Below the pieces are notes generated by a model. It made no database searches, was not told the DNA's origin, and worked only from the letters and a program-made list of their open reading frames with translations. Shown here piece by piece: positions 2,763 through 17,674 of a stretch of DNA of 21,815 nt (its first letter is position 1; each line of letters starts with the position of its first letter). The position numbers and the translations under genes are program-made. Origin of the DNA: a virus; the IMG/VR virus record IMGVR_UViG_3300027413_000037, positions 1-21,815 of that record; one strand, given 5' to 3'.

Positions 2763-4979
2763 CTATTTAATATTTTTAAAAGCAGATCTTTTACGATTCT
2801 TACCCTGCATTCTTTTATTTTTTCTACCCATATGAGTAAACGGACTACTATTTAATTTAAACAAATTTTCCGACTTTTGCAACTTTTTAGCAGCATCATC
2901 CCTAATGATTTGTTTAGTATAACCTCTATTAGATTCTTGAATTCTCATAAAAGATACAAGTGCTACAAATGATACTAATCTATCCACGTTAACTCCATCT
3001 GCATATTCTTGCATTTCTTTGATAAGCATTGGATCAGGAATTCTTTCTATTCCATAAGTAGTTTTAACTACAGTTCCATCGGGTTTTGTTTCTTGATCAA
3101 GCTCTTCTCTAACAAACTCAATTCCATAACTGAGAAGATGTGATTTAAATAAAGTACCTGTATTCTTCCAACCATATTCCTGGAATACATTTTTATTTGC
3201 ACCAAGATCTTTTAAGAACATTATCTGACTTTTAGGTACAAGGTACTTCTGCTTCTTTCTACTTATCATGTAGTTAATAAACAAAGAAATATTATTCTCT
3301 ATTACAGTCCATGCATTATACCATTCTATTATAAGCTCTAATCTTTGATGAGTTTGTTTTATATCATCAAATCTTCCGCACCATGCTGCTACAATTTTAC
3401 TTTGCTCTATATAAGTTTCTGTTTCTGTTCCAGTCACTTTAGTAACTTCTACAGAGTTTTTCATTACATAAATAGAACACAATGAATCTGATGTTGTAGT
3501 TTTACCTTCAGCTACAGGGTCAATAGAAGCATAGTAACTTCCAAAGTCTGGTTTTTCTTTATTAGGTCTTTCCCATACTACCAAACACCCTGTTTTATCT
3601 TCAGTCTTTTTGTTTACAGGAAACTCACGTATAGGTTGTCTATTACTTTTTTTAACAGTTGGTTTGCCATTAGCATCTGTAGATATATCTAAGAATTCAT
3701 ATCCATATTCTTTTTCTTCTATTCTTCTAGCTTGTGCAGAAAGAAGATGTGTAGGAAATACTGATACAGATCTATTATCAAATGCTTCTTTTATATTTCT
3801 GGGATGCTGAGATATTCTTAACTGATAATCTTCTGGATTTAATTCTCTTTTCCAATCATCAAATTGTTGTTGTAAGGCTACGGTAGCTTCTTCTACTTTA
3901 GAATTACCATACTTGTCTATGTACGGTGGCATAGACCATTGTTCAGGAATAAATAAACCTGACATACCTTCAGTACCTTTGTGATCTATTAAATTAGTTT
4001 CTACAGCATATATATCTTTAGATGTTGGATTTTGAATCATATCCTTAAGTGGGTTACATTGTGACAAATCACCTACAGATCCAGCTGCTATAAACAATCC
4101 TGTAGTAGTAAGCCCTGATCTCATTGCTGGTCTCATGTACTCATATGTCTTATCCATCTTAGGTGCAATACCCGCCTCCTCATGAAAGAAGTATTTAACT
4201 GGACCCCCTACACCATTTGTAGGATCTTTCTCAAAGGACATACCTTGTATAGTTCCTTTTAGACCTACTTCAGTTTTTCTATTACCTTTTCTGACCTCAA
4301 TCTTTTGCTGCCACATCATTACCTTACTAGGGTTCATTGGTCTATACCATGCAGTATGTTCATTTAGGAATGCTGCATACTCATCTAAGAACTTCCAAGA
4401 ACCTTTTTCATTAATGTAATCTTTAAGGCTAGCCCCTATCTTAAGAGTTACCCCTGGCTCAAACCATTGCTGATTAATAAGCTTTGCCATATGATAATAA
4501 GAAGATGCAATCTGACGTTTCTTTAGTATAGCAACATGTTTATAGTTTAACTCTGCTAACACTTCATATAATGCCATATGATACTGAGCATCTCTAATAT
4601 CAGCAAATCCAAACTTTTGAATCTCTTTGTTAAAGATCGGTAAAAAGTTTAACCACATGTAGTAGTCTCTTGCTATATACCAAACTTTATCTCCTGATTT
4701 GTATATTACACCTTTTCTACATTTTTTCTTTTCTCCTTCCCAGTAGTTAATAAAGTCTCTTGATTTAAAAGGAGCAGCACAATAAAAACCTTGTGTATTA
4801 AACTTAGTAGCTTCTCCATTAAATTCTACAGAAGTTTCATCAAATGCATACTGACCAGGTTCTTTAAATAAATCTCTTACATAAGTTGCAAAGTCTTCTC
4901 TGCTATCAAAGTCTGTACTAGTCCATGTACCATTATCCCATGTAGGAACATCTTGATATATTTCTGTATCATTGGTCAT
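2763..4979 (-). CDS. terL: Terminase large subunit (TerL), DNA packaging ATPase/nuclease
   Basis: TerL is the two-domain motor that cuts concatemeric DNA and drives it into the prohead. The ATPase domain has a degenerate Walker A region around residues 153-161 (KKRQIASSY), the non-canonical form common in large-phage terminases, and a Walker B with the catalytic acid pair at 262-268 (KYFFHEE). The RNase H-like nuclease follows from about 478: the first catalytic Asp is in YYASIDPVAEG (D487), a second acid is near E561 (VIENN), and a third lies in the GVNVDR segment near 677. At 738 aa it is at the long end of the family, with a basic tail. The start overlaps the end of the 171-aa gene by 11 nt, indicating translational coupling. 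TerL is a confident call. Confidence 0.93.
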   Translation of the reverse strand: MTNDTEIYQDVPTWDNGTWTSTDFDSREDFATYVRDLFKEPGQYAFDETSVEFNGEATKFNTQGFYCAAPFKSRDFINYWEGEKKKCRKGVIYKSGDKVWYIARDYYMWLNFLPIFNKEIQKFGFADIRDAQYHMALYEVLAELNYKHVAILKKRQIASSYYHMAKLINQQWFEPGVTLKIGASLKDYINEKGSWKFLDEYAAFLNEHTAWYRPMNPSKVMMWQQKIEVRKGNRKTEVGLKGTIQGMSFEKDPTNGVGGPVKYFFHEEAGIAPKMDKTYEYMRPAMRSGLTTTGLFIAAGSVGDLSQCNPLKDMIQNPTSKDIYAVETNLIDHKGTEGMSGLFIPEQWSMPPYIDKYGNSKVEEATVALQQQFDDWKRELNPEDYQLRISQHPRNIKEAFDNRSVSVFPTHLLSAQARRIEEKEYGYEFLDISTDANGKPTVKKSNRQPIREFPVNKKTEDKTGCLVVWERPNKEKPDFGSYYASIDPVAEGKTTTSDSLCSIYVMKNSVEVTKVTGTETETYIEQSKIVAAWCGRFDDIKQTHQRLELIIEWYNAWTVIENNISLFINYMISRKKQKYLVPKSQIMFLKDLGANKNVFQEYGWKNTGTLFKSHLLSYGIEFVREELDQETKPDGTVVKTTYGIERIPDPMLIKEMQEYADGVNVDRLVSFVALVSFMRIQESNRGYTKQIIRDDAAKKLQKSENLFKLNSSPFTHMGRKNKRMQGKNRKRSAFKNIK

Positions 4980-9659: not shown

Positions 9660-10550
9660 TTACAAAGGAAATTTCATTGAATCTATTTGTCTATCATGAA
9701 AATCTTTACCATCTTTTCTAACTCTCTTATAATCAATGGTTAAAATTCTACCTCCAATAGGTTTTACTGGAGCACCTCTCTCAACGTGCCATCCTTTAGA
9801 TCCATCACCATACTCTTCTTTATAAGTTCCTGTGAGCATCATGTGAATTTGTTTTTGTAATTGTCTATAACCTTTAGCTCCCTGTAAGATAGTATCTCTA
9901 ACATCATTACGAGCTGCATTCTCATGAATGTGACCCATAGTAAAAACATCAAAGTCTTCATACATTTCTAAAGCTCTAGTAAGATTAAGTGCTCCTTTGG
10001 TTACTACACCACCTCCACCTGATCCATGAAAGTATCTTATTTTCATAGTAGCAGTGCAATTTGTAGCAGCAACTTTTTTTCTAACTATTTGATTAACAAT
10101 TAACCAACCACCATAACCACCTACTTGTACATCAGTATGGTTCTTAAGATTAAGTAGTTTTACAAATCTAGATAGTATGTCTGTTTCCTGCCATTTGATA
10201 ATAGCTGTTTCATGGTTACCATAACCTATAACTGTAAGTAAATGAGAATAAGGTGACCACCATTCAACTGCTGTTTCAACAATACTGTCTAGATATTTAG
10301 AATTGTTATGCTCTGGTCTAATATCAGATTTGTTTTTTCTTCTGTCTCCTTGACCCTGCATAAGGCAAAACATATCTCCATTGATCATAATAGGAATAGA
10401 TTCTTTTACACAGTAATCTAAATCTTTTTTTAATATTGACCAATCACACTTTGGATTGTCCCAGTGAATATCTGAGAACATAGCAATCTTAGCATGTGTA
10501 CCTTCAAGTTTTAACTCATGAATGTTCTTAGCATGTTTAATAATTTCCAT
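9660..10550 (-). CDS. Calcineurin-like metallophosphoesterase
   Basis: A 296-aa cytoplasmic protein with the full set of calcineurin-like metal ligands: SDIHWD (D27, H29), NGDMF (D59), GYGNHE (N112, H113), FHGSG (H175) and MGHIHE (H207, H209). The family hydrolyses phosphomono- or phosphodiesters with two metal ions. Phage members include nucleases and DNA-repair-like phosphatases, and the substrate here is unknown. It has its own candidate promoter 14 nt upstream and lies between the DOT1-like methyltransferase and the lysis operon. Fold and catalytic residues are a firm call. Confidence 0.88.
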   Translation of the reverse strand: MEIIKHAKNIHELKLEGTHAKIAMFSDIHWDNPKCDWSILKKDLDYCVKESIPIMINGDMFCLMQGQGDRRKNKSDIRPEHNNSKYLDSIVETAVEWWSPYSHLLTVIGYGNHETAIIKWQETDILSRFVKLLNLKNHTDVQVGGYGGWLIVNQIVRKKVAATNCTATMKIRYFHGSGGGGVVTKGALNLTRALEMYEDFDVFTMGHIHENAARNDVRDTILQGAKGYRQLQKQIHMMLTGTYKEEYGDGSKGWHVERGAPVKPIGGRILTIDYKRVRKDGKDFHDRQIDSMKFPL

Positions 10551-10563
10551 TTTAGATTTTTGC

Positions 10564-10578
10564 CTTAATATACAAAAA
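10564..10578 (-). promoter_or_regulatory. Candidate late promoter (TTTTTGTATATTAAG)
   Basis: A 15-base minus-strand sequence identical to the one at 17073-17087. It lies 14 nt before the phosphoesterase start, in the short gap after the methyltransferase stop. Exact identity of two distant copies, each at the start of a likely transcript, supports a shared late promoter element. Confidence 0.55.
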
Positions 10579-10582
10579 TTTT

Positions 10583-11089
10583 TTATTCTTTTACAACATA
10601 CCAGTTTCCTCTTGTAGTACTATATGTTTTTTCTATTGGTTCAGTTTTATTGAAAATAACATGAGGATTTTTTTTACGCCATGCTAAATCAGGTCTTCTT
10701 CCTAAAATAATTAAGCATCCTTTAGGAGCCATGTTATATATATCTGAATTTAAATGAATAGGCATTGCTTCATTAGATGATAAAATTATTGTAGCATCTG
10801 ATACATCTAATTTACGAAAATCAGAATTTATAAAAGAAACATTAGATAAGTTTAAATCTTTTAATTTTTCAGAAGCCACTCTATATCTTTGCTTATGCAA
10901 TTCAATGCCAACAGATTTACTTATTTTACTAGATTTAACAACTTGAATACATAAGTCTCCATATCCAGAACCTAAATCATAAAATACCCCTTGAGAATTA
11001 TTAAAATTGTCATGAAAAATATCTATTAGTTTACTAAACCCTTTCTCTGTAATTTCACCATATGCACTCCCTACAAAAACTTGCTGCAT
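10583..11089 (-). CDS. DOT1-like class I SAM-dependent methyltransferase
   Basis: A 168-aa Rossmann-fold methyltransferase. Motif I is FYDLGSGYGDL (36-46) and motif II ends in GIELHKQRY with the acidic ribose contact E63. The region SSNEAMP (104-110) takes the place of motif IV. The N-terminal AYGEIT (9-14) before motif I, and DLGSGxG followed by a G-[IV]-E segment, closely match the VYGET and DLGSGVGQ pattern of DOT1 histone H3K79 methyltransferases. It is far shorter than eukaryotic DOT1. Substrate is unknown: protein lysine methylation, or modification of a host or virion protein, are possibilities. It starts 1 nt from the end of the beta-helix fibre gene and is probably co-transcribed with the virion operon. 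Confidence 0.78.
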   Translation of the reverse strand: MQQVFVGSAYGEITEKGFSKLIDIFHDNFNNSQGVFYDLGSGYGDLCIQVVKSSKISKSVGIELHKQRYRVASEKLKDLNLSNVSFINSDFRKLDVSDATIILSSNEAMPIHLNSDIYNMAPKGCLIILGRRPDLAWRKKNPHVIFNKTEPIEKTYSTTRGNWYVVKE

Positions 11090-14686: not shown

Positions 14687-15484
14687 TTAAAGTATATTCA
14701 TATTTTCTAATGAAGTAATAAAGATTTTTGTGCCATCAGAAGTACCCTTCATTAGTGTAATTCCTGTAATTACAGGTTGTAAACTATTATTAGTGTACAT
14801 ATTTGTGCCAGTTTGTAAAGTTACAATCTCTGCTGCTGTATTATCAATTATAAAGATATAGTCTCCTACACCTAGGTTAGACATTGATATTGTAGTACTT
14901 CCTGTAATATCTATAGTAAACGTATTACCTGTAGAAAGATCAATTGTATCTGCAGCTCCTGCAAATGTTAAAGGTACTATAGGTGTCCATAAACTAGCTC
15001 CTGCTGGACCAATTGGACCAATAGGACCTTGTGGACCATCTAAGCCTTGTAGTGCTAAAAAAGTCCAGTTAGCTGTATCTACTGAAGGATCTGTAGCACT
15101 TGGTCCTACTGGATTTGTACATACATAACTAGATCCATCAAAGAATGCTACGTCATCAACTACATATGAAGAAGCTGCGCTCCATGTACCTGTAAAGTTT
15201 AATCCTGCTGCACCTACTGGACCTGCTGGTCCTATAGGGCCTGTTGGACCTGTTGCCCCTGGAGCACCATCTGCTCCTGGAGGTCCTGCTGGACCTTGTG
15301 GTCCTGTGCCACCTGAACCACCTAACTGTGTTTCAAGAGATTTAAAGCTAATAGCTGTATCATAATATTTAGACTTATTAATAGTATCTCTAGTTCCAAC
15401 AGGAATCATATCGCTATCAACAAGTGTTTTTTTAACTCTTCCCTTTTTGAGAATATTAAAAAAGTTATTTATATTTCTTAACAT
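14687..15484 (-). CDS. Collagen-like fibre protein with an inserted carbohydrate-binding-like module
   Basis: A 265-aa protein. The N-terminus (1-52) is basic, then helical. A Gly-X-Y run with about 12 triplets spans residues 58-94. At 98-143 a module beginning GTWSAASSYVVDDVAF and ending in NWTFLA resembles the CBM5/12-type chitin- or sugar-binding fold. A second, shorter Gly-X-Y run follows at 147-163. The C-terminal 100 residues are beta-rich (STTISMSNLGVGDYIFII) and could be the trimerisation or receptor-binding tip. Collagen-like triple helices in phages form rigid trimeric fibres. The gene is 3 nt from its upstream neighbour. Confidence 0.82.
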   Translation of the reverse strand: MLRNINNFFNILKKGRVKKTLVDSDMIPVGTRDTINKSKYYDTAISFKSLETQLGGSGGTGPQGPAGPPGADGAPGATGPTGPIGPAGPVGAAGLNFTGTWSAASSYVVDDVAFFDGSSYVCTNPVGPSATDPSVDTANWTFLALQGLDGPQGPIGPIGPAGASLWTPIVPLTFAGAADTIDLSTGNTFTIDITGSTTISMSNLGVGDYIFIIDNTAAEIVTLQTGTNMYTNNSLQPVITGITLMKGTSDGTKIFITSLENMNIL

Positions 15485-16218: not shown

Positions 16219-16857
16219 TTATGATGTAACTAATTGAACTGTAGCACCTTGTTCTACAATAAATTTAAAATCTACATATAAACTTGATTCAAACTCAAAG
16301 TTTGTTATTGTAGATACATAAATTTCATTATCTTCAATAGGCGCTTGATCATTATATACTGACAAATACACTACATTTGCAAATGCAGTTTCGCCAGACC
16401 CTACATTAGTAACAAGTGTTTCTTCACTAGCTAGTGGTGTATAGTCTACAGTATCAAATGTACTGTCTGCTGCTCCCATTAAACTAGAATCACTGATAAT
16501 AGCCATATTTCCTTTTGAAACATTGATTATTCCAAAGAAAGATACATTACTCCAAACTGCTGGTGCAACTTCTGAAACTGGATTGTCTGGAGATCCTATG
16601 GCTGCACTTCCTTTATGTTGCCAAACGTCATATGTAACTCCGTCTCTAACATAAGTTTCATTTTCACATTTTGAAATTGAACATGGAGAATCAAAACCTC
16701 CATCTGATATTGTTCCTGCCAATGTAGTAGTTGTTCTAAGACCTGCTGCTCTAAGGAAGAAATCTAGGCTAGTGTTTAAGTACTGCCAAACTTGTGTTCT
16801 TGCTGTAATAAATTCTTTAAGAATTCCAGAACTTCTTTTTTTACCTGTTGATGCCAT
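16219..16857 (-). CDS. First gene of virion operon, beta-rich structural protein (212 aa)
   Basis: I start at the ATG at 16855-16857. The longer frame begins with TTG and lies inside the structured non-coding region. The protein begins MASTGKKRSSGILKEFITAR. A helix with TQVWQYLNTSLDFFLRAAGL (21-40) could be an attachment or oligomerisation element. A beta-rich body follows, with four residues of possible disulphide or metal binding (CSISKC) and many Asp/Ser/Val strands. No enzyme motif. It resembles neck or tail-associated proteins but the family is unknown. A candidate promoter lies 14-25 nt upstream. Confidence 0.65.
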   Translation of the reverse strand: MASTGKKRSSGILKEFITARTQVWQYLNTSLDFFLRAAGLRTTTTLAGTISDGGFDSPCSISKCENETYVRDGVTYDVWQHKGSAAIGSPDNPVSEVAPAVWSNVSFFGIINVSKGNMAIISDSSLMGAADSTFDTVDYTPLASEETLVTNVGSGETAFANVVYLSVYNDQAPIEDNEIYVSTITNFEFESSLYVDFKFIVEQGATVQLVTS

Positions 16858-16869
16858 TTTATGTTTTTT

Positions 16870-16884
16870 AATAAATATACAGTT
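16870..16884 (-). promoter_or_regulatory. Candidate late promoter for the virion operon
   Basis: The minus strand reads AACTGTATATTTATT. It shares TGTATATTTA with the other late-promoter candidates, and its -7-like TATATTTA lies about 14 nt before the ATG at 16857. It follows the terminator-like T run of the candidate RNA at 16925, which suggests a fresh start for the virion operon. Confidence 0.42.
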
Positions 16885-16924
16885 ATAATATAGTAAAAAT
16901 AAATGATATAAAAAAGAGTAATAG

Positions 16925-17072
16925 AAAAAAACCCTCTTACTTAAAATCAAGCCTTCCTTGCGGTCAACTCTCAGGTAAGCTTGAGGGCTTTCTTATCAGC
17001 CTTTGCACTAGAGTATTCAAATCAAACCAGCTCTATCCTATGGCCGTCATCTTCATTACGCCAACTGACACT
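16925..17072 (-). ncRNA. Candidate structured non-coding RNA or attenuator leader
   Basis: On the minus strand, about 150 nt downstream of the TTTTTGTATATTAAG element form a chain of helices. P1 is UGGCGU/ACGGCCA with one bulged G. P2 is UAGAG/CUCUA. P3 is GGCU/AGCC. P4 is a stem of ten pairs with one A-A mismatch: UCAAGCUUACC (16974-16984) with GGAAGGCUUGA (16947-16957), capped by a UUG/CAA hairpin. It ends in GAGGG followed by seven U. P4 competes with CUUAC/GUAAG plus CCCU/AGGG, which would make the terminator stem. It has no ORF of note. It could be an independent small RNA or a switch before the virion operon. Folding was done by eye. Confidence 0.55.
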
Positions 17073-17087
17073 CTTAATATACAAAAA
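17073..17087 (-). promoter_or_regulatory. Candidate late promoter (TTTTTGTATATTAAG) with no gene directly after it
   Basis: Exact 15-base copy of the sequence at 10564-10578. It lies just after the terminator of the 17172-18726 operon and before the structured RNA region, as expected for the start of a separate non-coding transcript. Confidence 0.55.
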
Positions 17088-17092
17088 CTTTA

Positions 17093-17131
17093 TTAAAAAA
17101 CAAAGCCCCTAGTAGAAAAACTAGAGGCTTT
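17093..17131 (-). terminator. Intrinsic terminator of the co-chaperonin/secreted-protein operon
   Basis: The minus strand has GCCTCTAGT, a TTTTTCT loop, then ACTAGGGGC (nine pairs with one G-U), followed by TTTGTTTTTT. It is about 40 nt after the stop of the last gene. On the plus strand the wobble becomes an A-C mismatch and no U run follows, so it works for minus-strand transcription. Confidence 0.82.
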
Positions 17132-17132
17132 A

Positions 17133-17177
17133 GGCTAACTTGCCGTGAGGATTGGATGAGTGGGTAGCAAGTTAGCC
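17133..17177. repeat. Perfect 11-bp inverted repeat with 23-nt loop
   Basis: GGCTAACTTGC (17133-17143) is the exact reverse complement of GCAAGTTAGCC (17167-17177). The right arm includes the stop codon of the 67-aa gene. It lies directly before the terminator, so the transcript end carries two hairpins in tandem. There is no U run after it, so it is more likely an RNA-stability structure or a protein site than a terminator. Confidence 0.8.
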
Positions 17178-17375
17178 AAAAATATAATGATACCATAGCA
17201 TAAATATAATACCACATGCAGCAAATCCTGCATACCCTAATACCTTACCTTCAAAGTCTTCAACTTTTTTCTTTTCTACATTATCCCATATTGGCTTTAT
17301 AAGAGCATTAGCTAACACTCCTAAAAATATTATGGATATTAATGCTACTATGGTTATAAGAACTTTTACTATCAT
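17172..17375 (-). CDS. Small membrane protein, two TM segments (67 aa)
   Basis: The first membrane helix is at residues about 3-25 (VLITIVALISIIFLGVLANAL). A short charged loop (WDNVEKKKVEDFEGK) follows, then a second helix at about 46-63. There is no recognisable family. The charged loop between helices is probably cytoplasmic, with both ends outside, or the reverse. It is coupled to the co-chaperonin gene by an ATGA overlap. A role in infection of the membrane, superinfection exclusion or lysis control is possible but not shown. Confidence 0.66.
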   Translation of the reverse strand: MIVKVLITIVALISIIFLGVLANALIKPIWDNVEKKKVEDFEGKVLGYAGFAACGIIFMLWYHYIFG

Positions 17376-17674
17376 TTCCAGATCATTACTATATCATGTA
17401 CAGTTACCATCATTTTGATAGAACCGTCTAAATCCATAATCTCTGCATTGTGTAAAGCTCCTGTTTTGATATATACCTTATCTCCAACTTTTACATCTTC
17501 AACATCTGTACCTACTGCTGAAACATTTAGATGAGTCCACTCCTTCATCATTTCTTTCTCAGCATCTTTTTCCATGTTATCTGGAACGATAAGATCTAAT
17601 TCACCTTCTTTCTTCTCTTTCTTTTCAGGCTTATCAATTAATATTCGATTGCCTCTTAAAATAAATTCACTCAT
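17372..17674 (-). CDS. GroES-like co-chaperonin (Cpn10 fold)
   Basis: A 100-aa protein with the Cpn10 beta-barrel layout: an N-terminal strand LRGNRILIDKPE (6-17), a mobile loop region (18-46) and a barrel VSAVGTDVEDVKVGDKVYI (51-69), then DLDGSIKMMVTVHDIVMIW (81-99), matching the GroES order VVAVG, VKVGDxV, and the final DI-x-I. The mobile loop is highly charged and carries LDLIVPDN at 26-33, where the hydrophobic LIVP could replace the IVL tripeptide of GroES that docks on GroEL. Phages such as T4 (gp31) encode co-chaperonins to fold their capsid protein with host GroEL. This protein probably plays a similar part. It is distant from bacterial GroES. Confidence 0.78.
   Translation of the reverse strand: MSEFILRGNRILIDKPEKKEKKEGELDLIVPDNMEKDAEKEMMKEWTHLNVSAVGTDVEDVKVGDKVYIKTGALHNAEIMDLDGSIKMMVTVHDIVMIWK

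Follow-up and report, generated by a model that had tools for sequence, protein, structure and literature searches.

A predicted free-standing small-RNA gene, with late-type promoter and terminator of its own, in a phage distantly related to crAss-like phages

In the Pseudomonas phage PAK_P3, two intergenic RNAs of about 100 nt, sRNA1 and sRNA2, are strongly expressed late and have unknown targets (PMC4933390). At the time of that report (2016), the band C and D RNAs of phage T4, whose function is unknown, were the only small RNAs that had earlier been described from virulent phage (PMC4933390). The non-coding RNAs GOLLD and ROOL exceed 600 nt, adopt elaborate covarying folds and are often found near tRNA islands (PMC12286853). 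For crAss-like phages, a non-exhaustive survey of open-access text found no report of a small RNA.

This study considers a 21.8-kb IMG/VR virus record (IMGVR_UViG_3300027413_000037), analyzed over its whole length of 21,815 nt and referred to here as the window. Its large terminase (2763-4979) matches PHROG 6681 and is about 25% identical to the terminases of crAss-like and Flavobacterium phages, suggesting that the virus is a tailed phage and a distant relative of the crAss-like group. The unit of interest runs from 17087 to 16925 in the gap between a 67-aa ORF at the end of the upstream operon (17375-17172), where it follows a GroES-like gene, and a gene encoding a 212-aa protein. The minus strand carries all of its relevant signals as well as the virion and packaging genes of the window. 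The first-pass annotation had proposed either a free small RNA or a structured leader for this region; the analyses presented here indicate that it is probably a free-standing phage small-RNA gene, predicted to carry its own late-type promoter and terminator (Table 1).

The predicted RNA resembles sRNA1 and sRNA2 of the virulent phage PAK_P3 in being a small intergenic phage RNA; however, the PAK_P3 RNAs were seen by RNA-seq whereas the RNA of the window is predicted from sequence, and sRNA2 lies between tRNA genes and contains an 11-nt tRNA loop stretch whereas no tRNA is near the RNA described here. Band C and D RNAs of the lytic phage T4 are comparable as small, stable phage RNAs to which no function has been assigned. 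With GOLLD and ROOL, the RNA shares that it is non-coding, borne by phages and of unknown function, but it is only about 140 nt long, has clear structure only in its terminator and again has no tRNA nearby. Sequence matches to the PAK_P3 sRNAs and to these T4 RNAs were not found in the phage collection, in which close relatives of the T4 RNAs would be expected to show, nor was sequence kinship with GOLLD or ROOL found. Small RNAs of phages are a known kind, and the distinctive element of this locus is a relocated cassette that extends from promoter to terminator.

Table 1. Positions of the small-RNA unit, its predicted signals and neighboring features in the window.
Feature	Position	Strand	Remarks
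Late-type promoter (predicted), TTTTTGTATATTAAG	17073..17087	-	-10-like TATATT at 17081-17076; transcription predicted to start near 17069
Non-coding small RNA (predicted), about 140-145 nt	16925..17069	-	Homologues; closed frames
Invariant 24-nt 5' block, TGTCAGTTGGCGTAATGAAGATGA	17047..17070	-	Identical in three phages; candidate functional segment
Invariant 31-nt block, GAGAGTTGACCGCAAGGAAGGCTTGATTTTA, within terminator hairpin	16942..16972	-	Identical in three phages
Alternative hairpin P4	16947..16984 (16984-16974 with 16957-16947)	-	Retained in L132 and L137
Intrinsic terminator: long hairpin with CCCUC/GAGGG as its outer stem, followed by a run of seven T (16931-16925)	16925..16993	-	z between -3.3 and -4.1 across the three copies
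Separate promoter (predicted) of downstream gene, TTTTTACTATATTATAACTG	16880..16899	-	Conserved in G048 and G002
Downstream gene, 212 aa, without family match	16219..16857	-	
Upstream-operon terminator	17101..17132	-	Sets the operon apart from the RNA
Second exact copy of TTTTTGTATATTAAG, 5' of phosphoesterase gene 10550-9660	10564..10578	-	

Exact-pattern scans covering 2.9 million viral contigs identified two true homologues on the IMG/VR phage contigs L132 and L137, with the whole unit 88-89% identical. The match runs from the promoter to the T run and is followed by a common ATTACTC just past the T run. Two further patterns gave the same two contigs, and the gapped one of these (true gap length 41 nt), run on viral contigs, gave no other; both contigs were returned again by BLAST over 50 records and by a covariance model, built from these same sequences, over 100 records. 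BLAST against phage and plasmid records gave no credible match, and the 21-mer TTGACCGCAAGGAAGGCTTGA had no match in genome_contigs; the RNA set consists of three members, all metagenomic. Seven of the nine matches from the first exact-pattern scan were due to chance, as was that of L138 to a further pattern, and a plus-strand match of the model in L132 (E 0.38) was the reverse of the same hairpin. Between copies, the RNA body is 88.4-90.6% identical compared with 72-79% at four-fold degenerate codon positions in the phosphoesterase gene (Fisher p 0.0004, 0.027 and 0.066), a difference to which recent exchange could contribute in the comparisons with the window, and less so in that of L132 with L137 because gene and RNA sit together there.

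The window contains just two perfect copies of the motif TTTTTGTATATTAAG, at 17087-17073 and at 10578-10564 on the minus strand, in agreement with the 15-base identity to the copy at 10564 that was recorded in the first-pass annotation, and any other site in the window has at least two mismatches to the motif. Motifs of the same type are also present in L132 and L137. Additionally, in all of 26 related loci, a TTTTnTATATTA motif (one mismatch allowed) lies 5' of the gene that comes next after the phosphoesterase gene, and the designation of a late-type promoter is therefore a fair one. The presence of the motif and its conservation along with the unit point to a putative promoter at 17087-17073 from which the RNA would start near 17069. 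At the opposite end, the GAGGG and run of seven T described from the letters were found at 16931-16925 for the T run, and a stable hairpin followed by seven T is present by sequence and fold in all three copies. This strong intrinsic terminator would end the RNA at about 16925, releasing a transcript of roughly 140 nt, presumably late in infection. The earlier statement that no protein is coded also holds, with stops closing every frame in the window copy and the two homologues. A mini-ORF starting ATGAAGATG was considered and rejected, as a one-base gap breaks its frame in L132 and the peptides differ between copies.

Taken whole, the unit is mildly more stable than shuffles when folded on the minus strand (z -1.56 in the window; -1.10 and -1.80 in the homologues); the plus strand folds like shuffles, and the plus-strand reading was dropped for this z value (-0.42). 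The 69-nt terminator domain is far more stable than shuffles in the three copies (z -3.59, -3.25 and -4.12), whereas no such excess is seen for the 77-nt 5' part (z +0.56, +1.41 and +0.95), so that the roughly 150 nt of nested helices originally described by eye are borne out for the terminator domain but not for the 5' part. RNAalifold proposed a three-way junction (P1 UGUCAGUU/GGCUGAUA, P2, and P3 UAGAG/CUCUA) in addition to the terminator. Among the 47 pairs, the three closely alike sequences show a two-sided change in one, by which CCCUC/GAGGG of the terminator stem becomes CCUUC/GAAGG, and covariation was not above column shuffles, which often score as well, the three sequences being too alike to decide. 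The covariance analysis that had been suggested as a check therefore yielded a single compensatory pair in the terminator stem but no excess over shuffled columns. Strong internal structure outside of the terminator is not supported by the folding energies.

The alternative hairpin P4 is as first drawn, a minus-strand helix of ten pairs interrupted by a single A.A mismatch, and it is the best fold until the 3' arm of the terminator is made. Its reported exclusion of the terminator stem is correct for the inner CUUA/UAAG pairs, which clash with P4. The CCCU/AGGG helix on the outside, however, is able to form next to P4 (in the copy of the window, -19.8 compared with -25.4 kcal/mol), with the closing of the outer helix beside P4 costing 3.5 to 7 kcal/mol. 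Therefore, P4 and the terminator constitute a weak switch at most, and termination would be expected with or without P4. These observations bear on the proposal of a 5' leader with an attenuator or riboswitch, in which the alternation between P4 and the terminator would decide transcription of the operon from 16857. An alternative hairpin that overlaps the inner terminator helix and is favored before the terminator's 3' arm appears is reminiscent of such elements, and a virion operon does lie downstream; however, the outer terminator helix can form together with P4 and no Rfam riboswitch was matched, and the genomic neighborhoods argue further against a leader.

In L132 and L137, the unit is located between a phosphoesterase gene, with 93-95% protein identity to that at 9660-10550 of the window, and a gene encoding 105 aa. 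The next gene thus differs from that of the window, again with its own promoter, and in each of the three phages a conserved promoter-like motif of the downstream gene separates that gene from the RNA. The phosphoesterase/105-aa gap of the window is about 61 nt long and contains a promoter only, and 24 of the 26 relatives tested at this gap likewise lack the RNA. At the RNA site of the window, the related phage G048 (with a 50% identical version of the 212-aa protein) has just a hairpin, a terminator and a promoter; when the 172-bp cassette is omitted, the window and G048 can be aligned across TTTTTTATATCA and the promoter of the downstream gene. In a second phage, G002, other ORFs precede the terminator at this site. 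Both lack the RNA here, and both have the downstream promoter TTTTTACTATATTATAACTG. The RNA unit is conserved independently of its neighbors, at two loci, each time with its own predicted promoter and its own terminator.

Unlike in attenuators and riboswitches, no gene depends on this RNA, with promoters of their own preceding different next genes. The leader reading fails because the downstream promoter-like motif, also found in phages without the RNA, follows the terminator, and it is considered very unlikely. Combined, the occurrence of the RNA at two sites and the conservation of the downstream promoter without it point to a free-standing, relocatable cassette rather than a leader. The free small RNA of the first-pass annotation is the proposal that gains from these results, backed by homologues at another locus and by a degree of conservation that exceeds what is seen at degenerate codon sites.

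In L132 and L137, there is no terminator between the phosphoesterase gene and the RNA, and the RNA starts about 10 nt past the phosphoesterase stop codon; therefore, the RNA in these two phages could also be the 3' end of the phosphoesterase transcript. Extended to all copies, the region would be a terminator or 3' UTR only, with an inactive promoter motif and a sequence that makes up the 3' end of the mRNA of the upstream gene, from which a 3'-UTR-derived RNA might be processed. The confinement of all folding signal to the terminator is consistent with this explanation, as is a relative, L158, with a bare, similar terminator after its phosphoesterase gene. A 3' UTR is nevertheless unlikely, given that the upstream operon of the window is closed by a strong terminator of its own ahead of the RNA, that the promoter motif was relocated along with the RNA, and that the 5' half is conserved though unstructured. 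The bare terminator of L158 (AAAACCTTCAAACTCTTTGAAGCAAGAAGGTTTTTTT, at about 3389-3446 of the locus) resembles that of the RNA without the 5' part and may be an ancestral or reduced form of it. Separately, the stretch comprising the phosphoesterase gene and the RNA is 87.5% identical between L132 (7700-8890) and L137 (742-1929), and elsewhere the two contigs have in common only a second short stretch according to BLASTN, which suggests that phosphoesterase gene and RNA have been exchanged between phages as a module.

Searches of Rfam 15 at gathering and relaxed thresholds, as had been recommended in the first-pass annotation, gave chance matches only, with no family at the gathering threshold. 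ARAGORN detected no tRNA and no tmRNA, and no tRNA lies near the unit. A decayed or imitated piece of tRNA, tmRNA or rRNA that acts on translation could be read from a T-loop-like GTTCGATTC in L132 and from TGGCGTAATGA, which equals E. coli 23S rRNA over 11 bases; however, GTTCGATTC is missing from the other two copies, 5 to 96 of 100 shuffles reach the best local scores to 23S, 16S and tRNA-Glu, and with neither ARAGORN nor Rfam matching, such an origin is highly improbable. A hammerhead suggested by CUGAUAAGAAA was rejected, having no stem II and no Rfam support.

A conserved, weakly structured 5' half followed by a stable 3' terminator hairpin is the typical build of a trans-acting bacterial sRNA. 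As a free-standing small RNA, the transcript might act in trans via the invariant segment in its weakly structured 5' half, either pairing with another RNA or DNA strand or binding a protein, with the 3' hairpin serving as terminator and stabilizer. Base pairing in trans is possible but on balance doubtful; antisense pairing in phage contigs was not above shuffles, with one of the tests being weak from its mixture of long gapped duplexes. The invariant 24-nt block provides a defined segment for testing. More broadly, and tentatively at somewhat short of an even chance, the three copies could represent a new family of mobile promoter-to-terminator sRNA cassettes (a non-coding 'moron') in environmental phages related to the crAss-like group, moving between late intergenic gaps and targeting in trans either the host or the late program of the phage. 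If true, an RNA unit that moves intact, together with its own promoter and terminator, and has a body conserved in sequence would mean that phages exchange RNA genes as they do protein genes.

Several other elements of the window were noted. The end of the upstream operon (17092-17180, minus strand) has two tandem hairpins, a 12-bp stem with a 21-nt loop and then a 13-bp terminator (z -5.7). The same two-hairpin operon end is present in G048 and G002 with a largely different stem sequence, and two-sided changes were found in 7 of 22 consensus pairs, several pairs being misaligned or broken; few others of this build were found in a scan of 20 loci. A GroES-like co-chaperonin (17372-17674, minus strand; PHROG 3188, E 1e-6) is encoded at the same place in relatives. 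Between the tail-region and phosphoesterase genes, a 168-aa protein (10583-11089, minus strand) matches Pfam DOT1 and other methyltransferase models, and a 265-aa protein (14687-15484, minus strand) has a collagen-like repeat and tail-fiber matches.
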